Virus record (IMG/VR): IMGVR_UViG_3300037468_000288
Location: 1-41,290 of that record
Reading direction: 5' to 3' (one strand)
DNA length: 41,290 nucleotides
Source: a virus
How positions within the stretch are numbered: position 1 is the first letter of the stretch; the number at the start of each line of letters is the position of its first letter. The position numbers and the translations under genes are program-made. Below the pieces are notes generated by a model. That model was not told the origin of the DNA. It made no database searches and saw only the letters and a list, made by a program, of their open reading frames with translations. Of the stretch, positions 10,209 to 41,290 are shown piece after piece.

Positions 10209-10614
10209 GCTGTAACCTCTTCAGCCAAATGCAATCATTCTTGGTAAGGGTCATGATCAGCATGTCCCCGTCCTCATAGACGTCTTTGATACGCCCCTCT
10301 TGTTTGAACCCCATCTTGCGTAGCAGGTTCAACGACTTAACATTCCAATAGTGGGCATAAGCGATAATCTTGCTAACGCCCAACTGGTTGAACGGATAGT
10401 CGAAGATGGCCCATATGAACTTGCGACTCCATCCTACCTTATCGAAAGCGATGCTAGCAACAATAGAAGCGCCAGTGTAACTATCAAAGACAACGCCACC
10501 AACAATTTTTCCATCTCGAATGTCTCCAATCGAGGTTGCCCCCTGGGAAGGGAACATGCCCTCAATCCGAATGCTTACCCAATGGGCTACGTGGGCGCTA
10601 TTGACGATCAGCAT
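10201..10614 (-). CDS. GNAT-family N-acetyltransferase
   Basis: 137 aa, near the usual GNAT length. IVGGVVFDSYTGASIVASIA gives the central strands, YPFNQLGVSKIIAYAHYWN covers helix 3 and the following strand, and SLNLLRKMGFKQEGRIKDVY is the acceptor-side motif B with the common GFxxEG turn. The acetyl-CoA loop is degenerate. Substrate unknown. It overlaps the APS/PAPS reductase-like gene by 7 nt and both sit inside the tail genes. Phages often carry such enzymes as host-modifying or base-modifying genes; the sequence does not say which applies. Confidence 0.8.
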   Translation of the reverse strand: MLIVNSAHVAHWVSIRIEGMFPSQGATSIGDIRDGKIVGGVVFDSYTGASIVASIAFDKVGWSRKFIWAIFDYPFNQLGVSKIIAYAHYWNVKSLNLLRKMGFKQEGRIKDVYEDGDMLIMTLTKNDCIWLKRLQHG

Positions 10615-11306
10615 TTGACTAGCTTCCTGATGATCTGATCCTTGATCTGCTCCCGCTTCAGGCGGACGTACCGGGCCGCAGTGGGGTGGCGGTCAATGAA
10701 GCCGGGTACAGTTTTGTCCCACCATCCGGTACAGCACATGCAGTCCACCCCATAGGAACCGTACTGGTATACAGGGTGGATTGGCGCATCCATTGTTTCC
10801 AGCAAGTCCATGACGTCCCGGTCGGTGTAATGTTCAAGCGGGAATATAAATTCAATACCATCAATAATGTCCCATGAATTAACTGGCGACCTTGGGCTAT
10901 CGCATGCCTTCTGACCTCTTATGATACAGGTAACACCGTCTGCCAGCACACGCTCGTGGAGGGGAAGCATGATGTTAGCGGCGCAGCAAGCATAGGAGTC
11001 CGAGAGCTTTATATCAGTTGGTCTCTGGTGACAATTTCTCCCGTCTGCAATAATAACGTCGGAGGGCATGCCATTATGCTTGATCCACTTGCTAACGTTG
11101 GACCTTACTTCCACGAAGAACGGGCAAATATCCCTACACTCCTCAATTACCTCGATGGTCTCGGGGTAGTTGTCTCCAGTATTCAGCCAATACACCGTGA
11201 TACGGTGTAGGTAGTCCTTAAGCAAGTACAGACACGCCACAGAGTCCTTCCCACCAGAAAGCTCTAGGGCGATATTCTGATGCCGGGATAGGAAATCAAG
11301 ATTCAT
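10608..11306 (-). CDS. APS/PAPS reductase-like PP-loop enzyme
   Basis: 232 aa. The start at 11306 is fixed by an ATGA overlap with the tail hub stop and by GAGGAAGG upstream. The PP-loop SGGKDS is at residues 17-22, where the adenylyl group of (P)APS binds. CC at 107-108 and C189-x-x-C192 match the CC...CxxC pattern that holds a [4Fe-4S] cluster in APS reductases, with PLHERVLADG and RGQKACDSPRS between them as in that family. The C-terminal catalytic Cys of assimilatory reductases (ECGLH motif) is not seen, but the last residue is Cys232. It may reduce adenylylsulfate, or act as a PP-loop ATPase in a thiolation reaction. Its place in a tail operon is unusual but known in phages. Confidence 0.83.
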   Translation of the reverse strand: MNLDFLSRHQNIALELSGGKDSVACLYLLKDYLHRITVYWLNTGDNYPETIEVIEECRDICPFFVEVRSNVSKWIKHNGMPSDVIIADGRNCHQRPTDIKLSDSYACCAANIMLPLHERVLADGVTCIIRGQKACDSPRSPVNSWDIIDGIEFIFPLEHYTDRDVMDLLETMDAPIHPVYQYGSYGVDCMCCTGWWDKTVPGFIDRHPTAARYVRLKREQIKDQIIRKLVKC

Positions 11307-12910
11307 AGTACACCGCCTTCCTCTAACAGCCAGTCGGTCGACACCCAGAACGTCTCTTGGCGGGTTCGTAAGAGGATACGGATAGCCGCCGCAGTACCAA
11401 TTCCTACAACGGACTGCCAGGATTTGTAGGTAGTGAGCCCGCCCGCCCACACTGCCTCATCCCAATAATCCTCGTCCCAAGTACCAGGGACCACGAAATC
11501 AAAGGCTGTGGGAGATACCGGGGTATCGAACACGAAGTCTGTATTCACCGACAGACTCAGGGCAAACTGGCCTCGCGACAGTAGGGTGGGACGGACCATC
11601 TTGAAGTGCTTCTGCTTGCCGAGAGTGTTGAAATAACTGAACACCGTCTGGGCTTCGGAGCGAATGTCCGCACCTTCTACCACTAAGCCACCCTGGATGT
11701 AGGAGTCGTCGGTGCCACCCTCCCAAGCCCGATAGACCGCGCCGAAGCCCCCATAGAAGGGCAGCTGATTGTGCAGCTCCCAGCAATACGCTTGGTATCC
11801 GATGAACTCACTCCATGCTTTGGTAATGTCGTTCATGGCAAACTGGAAGGACGTGGTCGTAGTGGCCGGGATATTGATTATTAGCATATTGTTACCCGGA
11901 TACACGAAGGGCTGCCATCCGAACAAGTCACCGGTGGCATTAACCGCTGACGAGATCAATTGTTGGATATACTTGGCGGAGCTGTCCTGAGTCGGATTAA
12001 CTTTAGTGCTCTTCAGCAGATCGGTCAGATGAACGATGCCGTGCTGGGTAAGGATCAATACGTCTCCGCCATACCGGCAAGCGCAGCGACGGCCAACGGG
12101 AGCACCAGCATAATAAACTCCATGAAGCCCCCATGTATCAGCCCCATCGACATCCACACCCTTGAACACCGAGACTTGCCCCTCGCTGCTAATTGCAATA
12201 AGGTGGTCATCGGCCCCTTCGCCGTCATCGACCGTCCAGGTGATGATCTGCTGGAGATAGCCACCGCGCGTCCAGTAGCCACCGAAGTCAAATGACTTGG
12301 CTACTCCGAACAATTGGTCAGGCGGGAGATACCACCCGCGCGTGCTGTTCTTCTCCACGAACCAGATGCGCTTCTGGTGAGCATAGACGTGGATCAGAAG
12401 CTTAGGATCAATGCCGCTAATCGTATTGACCGTGCCGTCACCCGCCGAAATACGAGTGGTAGCACTTACCGGGTTGACCCAGATGATGTTGTCTGCGCCA
12501 TTACAAGCAATCAGATGAACGCCCGCCGAGTTGGCAAAGTTGATATGTTGCCACCGAGCATTGGTAAGGTCACAAGGCAAGTCGGGACCGCCACCAATAA
12601 GCGGATTGACTAATAGTTGATCAGTAACGTCCCTCATACAGGCCGCCTGCGAATCCTGGACTATGGCATAGAGGGTGCTTCCATTGGTCTTGTTGTGGCT
12701 CATAAGAGTCTCAACACTACCGCCCAACCCATCTACGTGGCGCCTATAGCCCCGGCGCACCTGGCAACCGTACGGCTGAGCAAACAGATTGCGAAGGACT
12801 AGCGCGTAACCGTCCGGCATATTGACGATTGAGTCATAGGCGTTCAAGCCTTTCACCGGGGCAGGCCGGGTCGTGACCTCAGAGACTTGAGGAATGGCTA
12901 CCTGTTTCAT
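11303..12910 (-). CDS. Tail hub / nozzle protein (propeller-like)
   Basis: 535 aa with start MKQVAIPQ at 12910, overlapping the previous stop as TAATG. The opening (TTRPAPVKGLNAYDSIVNMP, then LRNLFAQPYGCQVRRGY) is typical of podovirus gp10-like or tail-tube-B-like nozzle proteins. The body has repeated beta segments (GVHLIACNGADNIIWVN, KRIWFVEKNS, GGDVLILTQHGIVHLTD) suggesting a beta-propeller. It follows the head-tail adaptor directly, as expected for the nozzle of a short tail. Confidence 0.78.
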   Translation of the reverse strand: MKQVAIPQVSEVTTRPAPVKGLNAYDSIVNMPDGYALVLRNLFAQPYGCQVRRGYRRHVDGLGGSVETLMSHNKTNGSTLYAIVQDSQAACMRDVTDQLLVNPLIGGGPDLPCDLTNARWQHINFANSAGVHLIACNGADNIIWVNPVSATTRISAGDGTVNTISGIDPKLLIHVYAHQKRIWFVEKNSTRGWYLPPDQLFGVAKSFDFGGYWTRGGYLQQIITWTVDDGEGADDHLIAISSEGQVSVFKGVDVDGADTWGLHGVYYAGAPVGRRCACRYGGDVLILTQHGIVHLTDLLKSTKVNPTQDSSAKYIQQLISSAVNATGDLFGWQPFVYPGNNMLIINIPATTTTSFQFAMNDITKAWSEFIGYQAYCWELHNQLPFYGGFGAVYRAWEGGTDDSYIQGGLVVEGADIRSEAQTVFSYFNTLGKQKHFKMVRPTLLSRGQFALSLSVNTDFVFDTPVSPTAFDFVVPGTWDEDYWDEAVWAGGLTTYKSWQSVVGIGTAAAIRILLRTRQETFWVSTDWLLEEGGVL

Positions 12911-35484: not shown

Positions 35485-35782
35485 GTTAGAGAATGCCACC
35501 GAGCGTAAGGCGTGCGCCGTTGCAACCGGGCTAGGCATGCTGAACTTGAAGCTGAACGTTAGAGGCAACATAGGCTGGCCGGATAGGATGTTCCTATACA
35601 AGCATGCGGTACGGTTTGTTGAGTTTAAGCGGGAGGGCGAGAAGCTTCGACCAATACAGGAGTACATCCACTACCTTATGCTCAAGCAAAAGATACGCGT
35701 GTATGTTATTGACAACCTTCCCGATGCCGTAGCGCTTCTAAACAAGATCAAGGAGGAGCAAGATGCTCTATACCCCTCATAA
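35468..35782 (+). CDS. VRR-NUC domain nuclease
   Basis: 104 aa, GTG start with GGGAGG 7 nt upstream. The core is GWPDRMF (Asp39), VRFVEFKREG (Glu52-x-Lys54) and LRPIQEYIHYLMLK (Gln64), followed by a closing strand RVYVIDN. These are the catalytic residues of the stand-alone VRR-NUC family, which cuts branched DNA including Holliday junctions. In the phage it probably resolves recombination or replication intermediates before packaging. It overlaps the upstream nuclease gene by 17 nt and the helicase by 20 nt. Confidence 0.88.
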   Translation: MSGTSELENATERKACAVATGLGMLNLKLNVRGNIGWPDRMFLYKHAVRFVEFKREGEKLRPIQEYIHYLMLKQKIRVYVIDNLPDAVALLNKIKEEQDALYPS

Positions 35783-37144: not shown

Positions 37145-37195
37145 TTTACTTCCGTTAGGATTCCGGTATAATAGGGGTTCGGTAGCGCCGCTGCC
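37145..37195 (+). promoter_or_regulatory. Promoter and 5' stem-loop of the base-modification operon
   Basis: TTTACT at 37145-37150, 16 bp spacer, TATAAT at 37167-37172, with CTGTA before and CCGG-TATAAT-AGG around the boxes. The expected start is near 37179; the stem GGTAGC-GCC-GCTGCC (37181-37195, one G-U pair) begins two bases later. The GTG start of the first gene is 20 nt further on. Confidence 0.82.
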
Positions 37196-37214: not shown

Positions 37215-37439
37215 GTGATTGTTTTTAGAAAGAGTGACCTGTCCGGAGAGCAGCATGAGATGGAGCTCCCCATCACCGAGGATGATTTTGACAACGGGAT
37301 GGCTCGGTGGCTAAGTGGAACCCCTATCCAGCATGCGTTCCCGACGCTTACTATTGACCAGCGGGAGTTCATCATGACTGGCATAACGCCAGCGGAGTGG
37401 GCGGAGTTCACGAATCAGCTTGACGAGGAGAAGTTCTGA
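37215..37439 (+). CDS. Hypothetical protein, first gene of the modification operon
   Basis: 74 aa, GTG start with AAGGAG 8 nt upstream. Acidic and compact: EMELPITEDDFDNGMARWLS, then GTPIQHAFPTLTIDQREFIM and TGITPAEWAEF. The Q/A-F-P-x-L-x3-Q-x-E-F-I-M/L-T-G-I-T/S-P-x-E-W segment is well known from small phage proteins; function unknown. Its stop overlaps the kinase start (TGATG), so it is translated with the modification enzymes. Confidence 0.7.
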   Translation: MIVFRKSDLSGEQHEMELPITEDDFDNGMARWLSGTPIQHAFPTLTIDQREFIMTGITPAEWAEFTNQLDEEKF

Positions 37440-38014
37440 TGAACCTGAAGCTTATCAAGATTCACGGGACCAGCGGCTCTGGCAAGACTACCATCGTGCG
37501 CGACCTGATGGAGTACGCCAGCCGCGTGGACAAGATGGGGGATAATCCCAACCGCCCCTCGGCGTACTGGCTCAGCCTTCCGGGATTCCAGAACCCTGTG
37601 GTAGTACTGGGGTCATACGAGAGTACTTGCGGCGGGATGGATAGCATTACCTGCGTCCAGACCCAGATCGATCTGATCCATAAGTACTACGCCCTTGGCG
37701 CCCACGTGATCTACGAGGGCCTGCTGCTCTCCACCTATTACGGCAAGCCGGGCAAGGCGGTGGAGTGCTACGGCCAGGACCACATCTGGGCCTTCCTCGA
37801 TACCCCCATCGATGTCTGCATCGAGCGGGTGAAGAAGCGTCGGCTGGAGGCTGGTAACACCAAGCCTCTTAACGAGCGCAATACTCGGGAGCGGGTGAGG
37901 CCAATCATGGCTCTCCGCACTCGACTGATCCGTATGGGGGCCCACGTCGTAACGCTGAACCACGACGACACCCCGGCTAACCAAGTAATGGACCTTATGG
38001 AGGGCCCGGCATGA
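37439..38014 (+). CDS. P-loop kinase, likely 5-hmdU DNA kinase
   Basis: 191 aa. Walker A GTSGSGKT at residues 10-17. VVVLGSYESTCGGMDSI and HVIYEGLLLSTYYGK follow, then AFLDTPIDVCIERVKKRR with the lid-type arginines. The combination G-x-Y-x-T/S-x-CGG-x-D and the EGLL segment is, as I recall, characteristic of the phage 5-hydroxymethyluracil DNA kinases shown in thymidine-hypermodifying phages (M6 and ViI type). These add phosphates to hmdU in polymerised DNA. It overlaps its neighbours at both ends (TGATG and ATGA). The alternative is a kinase acting on free nucleotides. Confidence 0.78.
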   Translation: MNLKLIKIHGTSGSGKTTIVRDLMEYASRVDKMGDNPNRPSAYWLSLPGFQNPVVVLGSYESTCGGMDSITCVQTQIDLIHKYYALGAHVIYEGLLLSTYYGKPGKAVECYGQDHIWAFLDTPIDVCIERVKKRRLEAGNTKPLNERNTRERVRPIMALRTRLIRMGAHVVTLNHDDTPANQVMDLMEGPA

Positions 38015-38790
38015 GCACCTATGATCCCCTGGTCAAGTTCATCAAGGAGCGCGAGTCCATCCGCGTCAAGAAGGAGCTTGGCCTCCCAAAGCCCTGGACG
38101 GATGACCCTATCCTCCAGCACTACCGCTTCTGTAACGTAAATCGTAACGACGACAAGGTGAGTCAGTGGATATTCGAGAATTGGATTGCCCCAAACGAGG
38201 GCAGCGCGTACCTGGTCCATAACATCATAGCCTCCCGGATGATCAACTGGCCGGATACGCTGGAGGAGGTTGGCTTCCTGCACCCATGGGACGAGGACAA
38301 GTTTGTCGACAGAGTACGCTCCCGTATCGCTCGCGGCGACAAGACCTGGACCGGGGCCTACATGATTACAGCCGAGCACGACGGTACGCCCAAGGAGGTC
38401 AGCGTAGCCCGTACCATAGCGATGGTGGATTGTATTACCCCGCTGAATAATAGCTGCCACAGAGCATGGCGACAGCTCAAGAAGCTACCCCGTATAGGCA
38501 GCTTCATGGCGGCTCAGTTCGTAGCGGACTTCAAGCGTACGTACATCCTTGGCACCGCTCACGACTATGAGACGTTCTGCGCCCCAGGGCCGGGGAGCAT
38601 GAAGGGGCTGAATGTCCTACTCGGCTGTGATATCAATAGGAAGTGGGAGCAATACGACTTCGAGGATGAGGTGAACTACATCCGTTCCGTCATCCCCATC
38701 CGGCTCGATGCGCAGAACGTCCAGAACTGCCTTTGTGAGTTCTACAAGTACCATCGCGGGAAGTCCCGCTCAACCTACCCAGGAGTCTAA
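38011..38790 (+). CDS. HhH protein of the HMUDK-helical / aGPT-PPlase type (base hypermodification)
   Basis: 259 aa from the ATGA overlap. WTDDPILQHYRFCNVNRNDD is the hallmark start of the family (DDPIL-x2-YRF-x-NV-x-R). LPRIGSFMAAQFVADFK is a helix-hairpin-helix of the DNA-glycosylase kind. FCAPGPGSMKGLNVLLG is the G-P-G-x2-x-GLN signature near residue 195. This family was predicted by comparative genomics (Iyer and co-workers) to act on modified thymines in phage DNA and is listed as the 5-hmdU DNA kinase helical domain. Here it is a separate gene beside the P-loop kinase, so the two products probably work as one enzyme or in consecutive steps. Confidence 0.8.
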   Translation: MSTYDPLVKFIKERESIRVKKELGLPKPWTDDPILQHYRFCNVNRNDDKVSQWIFENWIAPNEGSAYLVHNIIASRMINWPDTLEEVGFLHPWDEDKFVDRVRSRIARGDKTWTGAYMITAEHDGTPKEVSVARTIAMVDCITPLNNSCHRAWRQLKKLPRIGSFMAAQFVADFKRTYILGTAHDYETFCAPGPGSMKGLNVLLGCDINRKWEQYDFEDEVNYIRSVIPIRLDAQNVQNCLCEFYKYHRGKSRSTYPGV

Positions 38791-38791
38791 C

Positions 38792-39769
38792 ATGATTACT
38801 ATAGAAGCACGTAACGTCAATGAGGTCTTCCGGCGAGGCATGGAGCTCCTTGCTGATCGGGGCCACGACTATGGCTCCCGTAACGGAAGGGTGCGTACCA
38901 TCCCCTGGCCGGTCTGTATCGTCTATCGACAGCCCATGGAGAGGATGCTCTTCTGCCCCGAGCGCGACGCCAACCCCTTCTTCCATATCATGGAGGGGCT
39001 GTGGATGCTAAACGGCCAGCGGGATGAGGACTTCATCGTACAGTACAACAAGCAGATGGCGGAGTACGCCAACGACTTCGGCACCTTCGATGGGGCTTAT
39101 GGGTACCGCTGGCGCTACATGTTCGGCACGGATCAAATTGCCGACGTGATCAGCCTTCTGCGCTCCAATCCGGACACTCGCCGGGCGGTGATCCATATGG
39201 GGTATCCGGGAGTGGACAACCTGCGTAAGAGCAAGGACGTTCCGTGTAACACCTCCATCTACTTCCGGGTGAACCCCAGCAATAACAAGTTAGACATGAC
39301 GGTCGTGAACCGTAGCAACGACGCCATCTGGGGAGCCTTCGGCGCCAACGCGGTCCATATGTCCATGCTCCACGAGGTCGTTGCGGTAAGCTCCCGGCTT
39401 GCGGTTGGGACGTACTACCAGTTCACTAATAACCTCCACGCGTACTACGACAATCCCAAGATGGAGCAGCTTCTGTGGGAGGACATCGACACCACCGATC
39501 TATACGAGTCGAGGGGTTGGAAGCCATACCCGATAATAACCCACCCTGATCGGTGGTTCGTACAGCTAGACGAGTTTATGAATGACGGCGGGGAGTACAG
39601 TAAGAAACTATACAACCCGTGGTTCTATGCCGTAGCCCGGCCGGTAGCTAAGGCTCACCTTCACTATCGGGTTGGGGCGTACGCTCTGGCCCTTGAACAG
39701 TGCTACTCTATCGCTGACCCCGCCATTTCCCACGTGTGCCGGAATTGGATAGAGCGGAGGATCAAGTAA
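38792..39769 (+). CDS. Thymidylate-synthase-like enzyme, likely dUMP hydroxymethylase
   Basis: 325 aa, start 38792 set by AGGAG 7 nt upstream. Motifs: FHIMEGLWMLNGQRD, YGYRWRYMFG, TRRAVIHM, KDVPCNTSIYF with the nucleophile Cys152, and NRSNDAIWGAFGANAVHMSM, the RS-x-D...N block. Asn186 falls where thymidylate synthases keep the Asn that selects dUMP; dCMP hydroxymethylases have Asp there. The lengthened A-F-G-A-N-A block is typical of phage members. Next to hmdU DNA kinase genes, formation of hydroxymethyl-dUMP from dUMP and methylene-tetrahydrofolate is the best reading; plain thymidylate synthesis is the alternative. The stop overlaps the HD gene (TAATG). Confidence 0.82.
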   Translation: MITIEARNVNEVFRRGMELLADRGHDYGSRNGRVRTIPWPVCIVYRQPMERMLFCPERDANPFFHIMEGLWMLNGQRDEDFIVQYNKQMAEYANDFGTFDGAYGYRWRYMFGTDQIADVISLLRSNPDTRRAVIHMGYPGVDNLRKSKDVPCNTSIYFRVNPSNNKLDMTVVNRSNDAIWGAFGANAVHMSMLHEVVAVSSRLAVGTYYQFTNNLHAYYDNPKMEQLLWEDIDTTDLYESRGWKPYPIITHPDRWFVQLDEFMNDGGEYSKKLYNPWFYAVARPVAKAHLHYRVGAYALALEQCYSIADPAISHVCRNWIERRIK

Positions 39770-40272
39770 TGGATGCCGAACACACGATCCAAATGGTCCG
39801 TAGCGGTAACAAGGTGCGCCGCTTCCATACGGTCGATCTGCTTGTCCCCGAGACGGTTGGCCACCACTCGGCTAACGTGGCGCTAATCTGCGCTTACTTG
39901 GTAGAGTTCCCCAGCCTGAACTTGATCATGGCGGCTCTTCACCACGACCTTACCGAGCAGTGGACCGGGGACGTTCCCGCCACGGCTAAGTGGGAGAGTC
40001 AGAAGCTGAAGGACACCTTGACCGAGATTGAGAACAAGTATGACTTCTGCCGGTGGAAGCTCACCGAGGGGGACTACGCCATTCTCAAGTGGGCCGACAT
40101 GCTCGACCTGTGTTACAAGTGCGTGGATGAGATGAAGCTGGGCAACTCCACGGTATCCCCCATCCTCAACCGGGGCCTGGCCTTCCTGCGAGCATCTAGC
40201 CCGTCAGAGAAGGTCATGTACCTGGTGGAGGGAATTGAACGTTCAATTGAAAGGATACTATATGGCCGCTAA
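39769..40272 (+). CDS. YfbR-like HD-domain 5'-nucleotidase
   Basis: 167 aa, GGAGG upstream, start in the TAATG overlap. GHHSANVALICAYL (His32/33), MAALHHDLTEQWTGDVPAT (His59-Asp60, Glu63) and LKWADMLDL (Asp near 119) are the metal-binding HD set of deoxynucleoside 5'-monophosphatases of the YfbR group, and the length is usual. In this operon it could dephosphorylate host dTMP or other dNMPs so that the modified pyrimidine dominates the pool. Substrate is not readable from the sequence. Confidence 0.83.
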   Translation: MDAEHTIQMVRSGNKVRRFHTVDLLVPETVGHHSANVALICAYLVEFPSLNLIMAALHHDLTEQWTGDVPATAKWESQKLKDTLTEIENKYDFCRWKLTEGDYAILKWADMLDLCYKCVDEMKLGNSTVSPILNRGLAFLRASSPSEKVMYLVEGIERSIERILYGR

Positions 40273-40519
40273 TGATATGCAGGTTCAGGGCGATCACTAC
40301 CGCAAGGTTCCCGGAGAGCAACACTGGGACCGTCAGTGGCGCCTTAATGGCCGGGGCTACTTCGTCGGCTGCGTCACGAAGTACGTGGAGCGGTATCACC
40401 TCAAGAACGGTATTGACGATCTGCGCAAGGCCCGCCACTTCCTGGACAAGCTGATCGAGCTGGAGACGGCGGAGGAGGAGGAGGACTTAATCGAGTCTCG
40501 AAGGAGGACGGGAGCGTAG
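40262..40519 (+). CDS. DUF3310-type small phage protein
   Basis: 85 aa; start at 40262 fits AAAGGA 7 nt upstream better than the ATG at 40235 inside the HD gene. MQVQGDHYRKVPGEQHWDRQ, YFVGCVTKYVERYHLKNGID and DLRKARHFLDKLIELE match the DUF3310 pattern (D/G-x-Y...Q-W-D...G-x-x-x-KY-x-x-R...K-N-G...DL-x-KA-x2-x-L). The family is widespread in phages and sometimes fused to nucleotide kinases; its activity is not established to my knowledge. It overlaps the HD gene by 11 nt and closes the operon. Confidence 0.82.
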   Translation: MAANDMQVQGDHYRKVPGEQHWDRQWRLNGRGYFVGCVTKYVERYHLKNGIDDLRKARHFLDKLIELETAEEEEDLIESRRRTGA

Positions 40520-40580: not shown

Positions 40581-40613
40581 CCCGGAATCGTCCTAGCGCG
40601 ATTCCGGGCTTTT
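40581..40613 (+). terminator. Intrinsic terminator of the modification operon
   Basis: Perfect 10-bp stem CCCGGAATCG/CGATTCCGGG (40581-40590 with 40599-40608), 8-nt loop, followed by CTTTT. It lies 62 nt after the DUF3310 stop. Confidence 0.88.
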
Positions 40614-40625
40614 GAAAGGTAAATT

Positions 40626-41084
40626 ATGGGGAGTTTTAAGTCGAAAGACAGGCTTATGTTGGAACGAGTATATGGAGAACTCTACCATATTCGTCTTCGT
40701 GGAAGCCGGTACAAGTGCGTCTATTGCGGCGATGTACGGGAGTGCCTAGATCATTGTCCTCCACTAACGCTGATGGATACAAAAGGTCCAAAGTATTTCC
40801 GGGATATTGATGTCCCCTTAGTCATGTACCCGTGCTGTAACGCGTGTAATAGGGAGCTGGGACATCGACACCTCCTCACCTATGAGGACAGACTACTTCA
40901 TCTATATCGGGCACTACAACGAAAGGTGGAGGGGAAGACTCTGTGGACCTCAGAGGAGATCAATTCTCTTACCGGAAACCTCAAGAGAATGGTCTCTGCT
41001 CGCCAGGCACATATCCGGCGAGAATTGGTAAGTAGGTTGAGAGGAGTGGAGGCTCGACTGGCCAGTATTGACTTAGAGAATTAG
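40626..41084 (+). CDS. HNH-like endonuclease, probably free-standing
   Basis: 152 aa, AAAGGT upstream. YKCVYCGDV (Cys31-x2-Cys34), CLDHCPPLTL (Asp42-His43 as the first HNH motif), and YPCCNACNRELG (Cys71-x2-Cys74, Asn75 as the N of HNH). The two CxxC pairs bind structural zinc. The C-terminus is helical and basic. Proteins of this type include homing endonucleases and phage packaging nucleases. It sits between a terminator and the left-operon promoter, codons are more AT-rich than the operon before it, and no partner gene is attached, so a mobile or homing origin is plausible. Confidence 0.72.
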   Translation: MGSFKSKDRLMLERVYGELYHIRLRGSRYKCVYCGDVRECLDHCPPLTLMDTKGPKYFRDIDVPLVMYPCCNACNRELGHRHLLTYEDRLLHLYRALQRKVEGKTLWTSEEINSLTGNLKRMVSARQAHIRRELVSRLRGVEARLASIDLEN

Positions 41085-41097
41085 TTTTCGGACTGTA

Positions 41098-41126
41098 TTT
41101 ACTTCCCGTTAGTCTCCCGGTATAGT
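41098..41126 (+). promoter_or_regulatory. Promoter of the left (early) operon
   Basis: TTTACT at 41098-41103, 17 bp spacer, TATAGT at 41121-41126, flanked CTGTA and CCCGG-TATAGT-AG. The leader to the HTH gene is only about 15 nt and carries AGGAGA 6 nt before the ATG. Confidence 0.82.
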
Positions 41127-41147: not shown

Positions 41148-41290
41148 ATGAACTTGAAAGAACTTAGAATCAGCCTTGGGCTGAGCCAGACGGAATTCTG
41201 GGGGCGTATCGGGGTATCCCAAACGAGCGGTAGCCGCTACGAGTCATACCGGGAACTGCCCGAACCTATCACGATTCTGATTGATATGGA
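41148..41290 (+). CDS. Cro/CI-type helix-turn-helix regulator, N-terminal part (continues at base 1)
   Basis: ATG at 41148, AGGAGA upstream. The frame runs to the end of the window and continues from base 1 to the stop at 228-230 once the 126-nt overlap is removed. Helices 2 and 3 of the HTH are LSQTEFWGRIGVSQTSGSR. Residues after IDM differ if the final A of the window is real. See the entry at 1-230 for the full description. Confidence 0.82.
   Translation, partial: MNLKELRISLGLSQTEFWGRIGVSQTSGSRYESYRELPEPITILIDM
41164..41289. repeat. Terminal direct repeat, right copy
   Basis: Identical to bases 1-126. Base 41290 (A) is the only mismatch with base 127 (C). Supports a circular map of 41163 bp. 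Confidence 0.95.

Follow-up and report, generated by a model that had tools for sequence, protein, structure and literature searches.

Which base does a phage end up with when its genes for thymine hypermodification seem to run out at a kinase? This question is raised by an operon at positions 37215-40519 of IMG/VR virus record IMGVR_UViG_3300037468_000288, a stretch of 41,290 bp that was analyzed in full and is called the window here. A preliminary description, drawn from the sequence alone, had placed in this interval a thymine-hypermodification operon of a podovirus-like phage with a P-loop kinase, a helix-hairpin-helix (HhH) protein, a thymidylate-synthase-like enzyme, an HD nucleotidase and a DUF3310 gene, and all of these are present there. 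We consider that the cassette is almost certainly a thymine-hypermodification cassette of the kind found in phages M6 and PaMx11, and the podovirus-like character of the genome is likewise supported. On the other hand, the amino-acid:DNA transferase (ADDT), which normally swaps the base phosphate for an amino acid, is missing, and the place that it occupies in related cassettes is empty. The best explanation, which we hold tentatively, is a thymidine hypermodification that terminates at the kinase step, each chemical step of which we infer.

The kinase gene (KIN; 37439-38014, plus strand) encodes a P-loop protein with the Walker A motif GTSGSGKTT and with the CGG-x-D and EGLL segments described earlier, here CGGMD and YEGLL. 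The protein is homologous over its full length to PaMx11 gp49 (34% identity), Pam3_49 (31%) and M6 gp54 (28%), and this homology, the synteny with these kinase genes and the shared Walker A, CGGxD and EGL motifs place it among them. Its best Pfam family is PF18748 HMUDK_HMUD1 (E 5.3e-5), with a score of 23.3 bits that lies under the curated cut-off of 27; the kinases of phages ctfPj964 and P26218 likewise score under this cut-off. From homology and a gene fusion described below, the kinase is predicted to phosphorylate 5-hydroxymethyldeoxyuridine (5-hmdU) in DNA. Homologs of 5-hmdU kinases, such as M6 gp54 and its relatives (L029:5686-6249), are widely labelled 'terminase small subunit' in GenBank and PHROGs (phrog_800), which is apparently a misannotation.

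The next gene (38011-38790, plus strand) encodes the HMUDK_hel/aGPT-Pplase1 protein, referred to as HEL. Its match to PF18723 is unambiguous (E 1.9e-36; 126.3 bits against a cut-off of 25; residues 3-251), and the two signatures noticed previously are present as DDPILQHYRFCNV and GPGSMKGLN. The family placement proposed for the two proteins was thus borne out strongly for the helical protein, in HMUDK_hel, whereas the kinase comes near HMUDK_HMUD1 but stays under its cut-off. Twenty positions are fully invariant across 37 relatives, and HEL keeps the family invariants R14, D32, N42, R45, D48, R76, N79, Y117, G163, F165, D173, D185, G193-P-G, C242, E243 and K246. Judged from an AlphaFold2 model (pLDDT 90.6, pTM 0.88), HEL has the HhH DNA-glycosylase fold: the top fold matches are Ogg-type DNA glycosylases (Z 10.9-9.7), one superfamily dominates the list, and MjOgg matches with Z 10.9 and an rmsd of 3.9 over 179 residues; the Foldseek E-values are weak (best 0.09). 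As read from the HhH motif LPRIGSF, the invariant Phe165 appears to stand where Ogg enzymes have the catalytic lysine, an arrangement compatible with a protein that flips bases out but does not excise them.

The thymidylate synthase homolog (38792-39769, plus strand; PF00303, E 9.4e-21; phrog_5131, E 2.7e-94) was aligned with E. coli ThyA, whose sequence was checked against the PDB, and with SPO1 gp29, which is annotated as a deoxyuridine monophosphate (dUMP) hydroxymethylase. The residues Cys152 and Asn186 that had been singled out align with C146 and N177 of ThyA and are invariant among 34 relatives. In E. coli numbering, the window protein retains Glu58, Cys146, Arg166, Asn177, His207 and Tyr209, and so should act on a uracil nucleotide. 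The window protein, SPO1 gp29 and all cassette relatives lack Trp80 and have Asp at Leu143, and the window protein shares with SPO1 gp29 a Trp at Leu172, where the hydroxymethylase pattern allows Trp or Tyr. This active-site pattern, with Cys146 and Asn177 kept, is of the SPO1 gp29 type and is evidence for, though not proof of, a hydroxymethylase activity in place of that of a thymidylate synthase.

The order kinase-HEL-(Nmad5)-hydroxymethylase-HD-(DUF3310) is common to M6, PaMx11, Pam3 and the window. Pseudomonas phages M6/YuA, whose modified base is 5-NedU, and Sphaerotilus phage SN1 share with the window a kinase, HMUDK_hel, a hydroxymethylase-type synthase, an HD gene and a DUF3310-family gene in the same order. 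The window differs from these 60-kb siphoviruses in being a 41-kb podovirus-like genome, in having its polymerase upstream instead of downstream of the cassette, and in lacking ADDT, the pyridoxal-phosphate (PLP) enzyme, the radical S-adenosylmethionine (SAM) enzyme and Nmad5. PaMx11 has the closest characterized kinase and hydroxymethylase (34% and 40%, respectively) and the same order kinase-HEL-hydroxymethylase-HD; unlike the window, it also has ADDT (glycinyltransferase, PDB 8z2m), an FAD enzyme and an acetyltransferase. In the podoviruses ctfPj964 (MW202557) and Rhodoferax phage P26218 (KP792623), the VRR-nuclease, SNF2, kinase, hydroxymethylase and HD genes are ordered as in the window, but the set is complementary, with ADDT and without HEL. 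Pelagiphage podoviruses are also similar by description, as small podoviruses with a thymidylate synthase and aG/PT-PPlase1 (aGPT-Pplase1) near PolA, interpreted as DNA hypermodification; the passages of that paper on these genes make no mention of the absence of a transferase (PMC9599517).

The preliminary description regarded the division of the kinase and helical parts between two genes as a distinguishing trait. This did not stand, because M6 (gp54/gp55), SN1 (SN1_021/SN1_020), PaMx11 (gp49/gp50) and Pam3 (Pam3_49/Pam3_50) also encode separate adjacent genes. Separate genes are the usual state, and we rejected the split as a novelty; the fused form, found in a few Bacillus phages, is the rarer one. 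In Bacillus phage SBSphiC (L143:3613-5523, minus strand), the two domains occur in one 636-aa protein instead of two (PF18748 at 35-193, PF18723 at 312-597), the gene of which adjoins the hydroxymethylase gene, and the fusion is also present in Goe26. Considering the fusion in SBSphiC, kinase and HEL would act together.

Substitution of the phosphate had been taken as the last step of the pathway, but the enzyme of the ADDT family that would carry it out is absent from an apparently complete genome. ADDT (PF18724) was not found in the window by the Pfam HMM, by our own profiles A1 and A4, or by unfiltered hmmsearch. As positive controls for PF18724, M6, PaMx11, Pam3, phiW-14 and ViI each gave one ADDT protein, that of PaMx11 being gp46 (PDB 8z2m, 'Glycinyltransferase'). 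The family is diverse: profile A1 misses ViI, and PF18724 finds both ViI and phiW-14. Nor does the window have the tailoring enzymes, which together with ADDT mark the amino-acid hypermodification pathway of the M6/ViI/PaMx11 type; a tblastn search with the PLP, radical SAM and FAD enzymes, the acetyltransferase and Nmad5 of M6, PaMx11 and Pam3 gave nothing with an E-value below 0.1.

In terms of completeness, bases 1-126 of the window recur at 41164-41289, with the last base alone differing. Because this 126-bp terminal direct repeat closes the assembly on itself at ~41.16 kb, the record most likely represents the entire genome, of about that length; the label 'linear' probably reflects the inexact match at the last base. 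The repeat suggests a circular or complete record despite the label, and the related contig G034 (39,235 bp) has a similar 126-bp overlap. The possibility that ADDT was missed through truncation was rejected on the basis of the end overlap and the closed syntenic site.

This site was examined in 37 distinct metagenomic cassettes having VRR, SNF2, kinase and HMUDK_hel genes. Related contigs have their genes in the order polymerase, (exonuclease), VRR nuclease, ADDT, SNF2 helicase, kinase, HMUDK_hel, (methyltransferase-like), hydroxymethylase. Thirty of the 37 cassettes carry ADDT, and in 28 of these the gene is flanked by those for the VRR nuclease and the SNF2 helicase. It is absent in seven, the window included, each of which shows an overlap of 10-37 nt between its matched VRR and SNF2 regions; the overlap of the two window genes, at the point where ADDT lies in the 28 related cassettes, measures 20 bp (35763-35782, plus strand). 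Whole-record searches of the ADDT-less contigs, including G034 (39 kb with overlapping ends) and two larger ones (61 and 64 kb), found no ADDT elsewhere. L167-L170 and G034 are also in the ADDT-less state. A quick tree was built from four proteins in concatenation; its support values are SH-aLRT only, and the long branch to L289/L299 is possibly misplaced. According to this tree, ADDT switched between presence and absence three times or more. The window pairs with the likewise ADDT-less L167, with full support, inside an ADDT-carrying group, and a further clade without ADDT, a deep one, unites L171, G034 and L285. The ADDT-less state is thus recurrent, and all catalytic and family-invariant residues of the kinase, HMUDK_hel and the hydroxymethylase are kept in its members (7/7). 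No residue sets ADDT carriers apart from non-carriers.

Since ADDT and all tailoring enzymes are absent, we predict that the pathway stops at the kinase step. The thymidylate synthase homolog, on the evidence of its family and residues, would convert dUMP to 5-hydroxymethyl-dUMP (hmdUMP), which would then be polymerized into DNA, and some or all of the thymine in phage DNA would be replaced. The kinase would phosphorylate 5-hmdU within DNA with HEL as a base-flipping or DNA-recognition partner, as homology and the gene fusion suggest, and the HD nucleotidase may lower competing thymidine monophosphate (dTMP). If the pathway stops after phosphorylation, the mature base would be 5-(phospho- or pyrophospho-oxymethyl)deoxyuridine, and we give such a phosphorylated end product somewhat less than an even chance. 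It is possible, though rather doubtful, that at least three small-phage lineages end at the kinase step and have virion DNA in which (pyro)phosphorylated 5-hydroxymethyldeoxyuridine is the final, negatively charged base. To our knowledge, this nucleoside is known so far only as a biosynthetic intermediate, and the accessible literature, outside which the main pathway papers fall, gave no report of a phosphorylated base as a finished DNA modification. A phiW-14 mutant provides a precedent for phosphorylated hydroxymethyluracil in DNA, since its DNA accumulates the pyrophosphorylated form when putrescinylthymine synthesis is defective (PMC5977210).

Several points weigh against a pathway that terminates at the kinase. 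The window kinase scores under the Pfam cut-off of PF18748, and phiW-14 needs putrescinylthymine to package full-length DNA (PMC5977210), so that a merely phosphorylated genome might be handicapped. In addition, HEL itself might be a transferase, the role that its alternative family name aGPT-Pplase1 predicts. The phosphate would then still be replaced, by HEL or by an unrecognized phage or host enzyme, to give an amine or amino-acid adduct as in phiW-14 and SP10; we regard this main rival as unlikely, but as one to be taken seriously. HEL and ADDT are complementary in their distribution among small podoviruses, ctfPj964 and P26218 having ADDT and kinase but no HEL, and interchangeable and separate roles would explain this pattern equally well. 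A profile comparison of HEL with ADDT gave a weak local match near the C-terminal CE/EC motif (E 0.003, probability about 10%); the structure model of the ADDT of L003 (pLDDT 50.9) was too poor for comparison, and aGPT-Pplase3 (PF18746) had no match in any of ten records, a search that thus had no positive control. SBSphiC has the kinase-HEL fusion, yet PF18724 was not found in its genome with the Pfam HMM. SP10 carries alpha-glutamylthymine, and if SBSphiC is close to SP10, as we suspect, another transferase would exist outside these profiles. However, glycinyl transfer in PaMx11 is assigned to ADDT (PDB 8z2m) although HEL is present there too, the fusion partner of HEL is a kinase and not a transferase, and 30 of the 37 cassettes keep both HEL and ADDT.

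Alternatively, the kinase may act on nucleotides (hmdUMP to hmdUDP) and HEL may have another role, which would leave plain 5-hmdU in the DNA as in SPO1. Weak matches to thymidylate-kinase profiles and a relative annotated as deoxyguanosine kinase are in line with this, but it becomes improbable considering that the kinase profile reaches T4 polynucleotide kinase in the PDB, that the partner domain in the fused form, with its DNA-glycosylase fold, points to DNA as the substrate, and that the kinase is homologous to the M6-type enzyme, which in purified form acts on SP8 DNA at TG sites (PMC6449724, citing an unpublished result). It is quite improbable that kinase and HEL convert hmdU back to ordinary thymine after replication. 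Although phiW-14 turns part of its hydroxymethyluracil into thymine after polymerization by an unknown mechanism (PMC5977210), and kinase and HEL are the part that ADDT-less phages retain, the operon has no redox enzyme and the HEL fold has no redox relative. It is very improbable, and largely refuted, that the phage has the full pathway of the M6 type with an ADDT that escaped notice in an incomplete contig or through divergence of its gene: the record is labelled linear and the diverse family includes ViI, which escapes profile A1, but the ends overlap by 126 bp, PF18724 finds ViI and phiW-14 and nothing here, and the syntenic site is closed, with the same state in L167-L170 and G034. We give hardly any weight to a decaying pathway in which kinase and HEL are relics left after ADDT loss. 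Loss is indeed the simplest history for the window lineage, nested as it is among ADDT carriers; however, the frames are intact with all family-invariant residues kept, and deep-branching ADDT-less clades (0.4-0.8 changes per site) still hold kinase, HEL and hydroxymethylase.

Thymine hypermodification, separate kinase and HMUDK_hel genes, and podoviruses with a synthase and aGPT-Pplase1 (PMC9599517) are already known. In the accessible literature, the main pathway papers excepted, we found no description of a transferase that is lost repeatedly from a single syntenic position while the earlier steps persist. Lee et al. 2021 reportedly described varied gene combinations in viral metagenomes, which may touch on transferase loss. 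If the kinase-terminated pathway is true, there are phages with a charged base in the genome, which would affect packaging, restriction and polymerases, and ADDT-less phages would be a natural source of enzymes phosphorylating DNA bases. If it is not, these phages isolate kinase and HMUDK_hel from the transferase, and two questions become testable, namely the role of HMUDK_hel and the route from hydroxymethyluracil to thymine in DNA (PMC5977210).

The operon consists of six tightly packed plus-strand genes, in the order 74-aa protein, P-loop kinase, HMUDK_hel, thymidylate synthase homolog, YfbR-like HD protein and DUF3310 protein, with a promoter-like site ahead of them and a strong terminator behind. 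A shared promoter, a terminator and overlapping frames had been proposed; the terminator is strong and most frames touch or overlap (TGATG, ATGA, TAATG), while the promoter-like site TTTACT-16-TATAAT (37145-37172, plus strand; 10/12 matches) comes from a scan with a yield near chance (4 found vs 2.4 expected). A near copy of its surroundings (TATTTACTTCC...CCGGTATAGTAG) is located at 41096-41126, ahead of a gene spanning the record ends. The first gene (37215-37439, plus strand; phrog_20898, E 2.2e-18), which the preliminary description left unnamed, encodes the 74-aa protein of unknown function; G034 has a homolog elsewhere in its genome. The HD protein (39769-40272, plus strand) is YfbR-like and a predicted 5'-deoxynucleotidase (PF12917, E 8.7e-16) with a weak match to the YfbR structure, and M6, PaMx11 and Pam3 have an HD gene in the same position. 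The last gene (40262-40519, plus strand; PF11753, E 1.9e-6) encodes the DUF3310 protein, which is homologous to M6 gp61 and PaMx11 gp53. The intrinsic terminator is a hairpin at 40581-40608 (plus strand; -19.2 kcal/mol, z -3.9) followed by CTTTTG, and no shuffled sequence folds equally well. Directly 3' of it, a cysteine-rich protein (40626-41084) shows weak similarity to endonuclease VII/HNH families.

Some related cassettes contain further genes. A methyltransferase-like protein of about 240 aa is encoded near HMUDK_hel and the hydroxymethylase (L002:2256-2969, L003:4114-4815, L130:15072-15794) in 11 of the 30 ADDT carriers and in none of the seven ADDT-less cassettes. Although these numbers are small, such a distribution is expected if the protein tailors the ADDT product, which is possible. 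In G034 (L128), the second ADDT-less genome that is apparently complete, HMUDK_hel and the hydroxymethylase have between them an open reading frame with a HAD-like DLDGT motif (11803-12255, minus strand), part of which was searched and had no Pfam match.

In the window genome, the structural genes (terminase, portal, major head, tail) are on the minus strand, and the replication genes (polymerase A type, exonuclease, VRR nuclease, SNF2-type helicase) are on the plus strand. The podovirus-like label fits because no tape measure gene was recognized in the genome and because the relatives of the portal include Stenotrophomonas phage BUCT555 and Myxococcus phage Mx8; the portal-based relatives are contigs of up to 35-42 kb. 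Amid the structural genes, a PAPS-reductase-family protein (PF01507, E 4.7e-13; 10608-11450, minus strand) overlaps the frames of both neighbours, with no match in G027 or G034. Beside the polymerase of BUCT555 (L133, MW291508; 13954-15328) stand DUF550 and a gene resembling adenylosuccinate synthetase, which usually mark 2-aminoadenine (Z) genomes, so that a single virion lineage includes differing base-modification modules.

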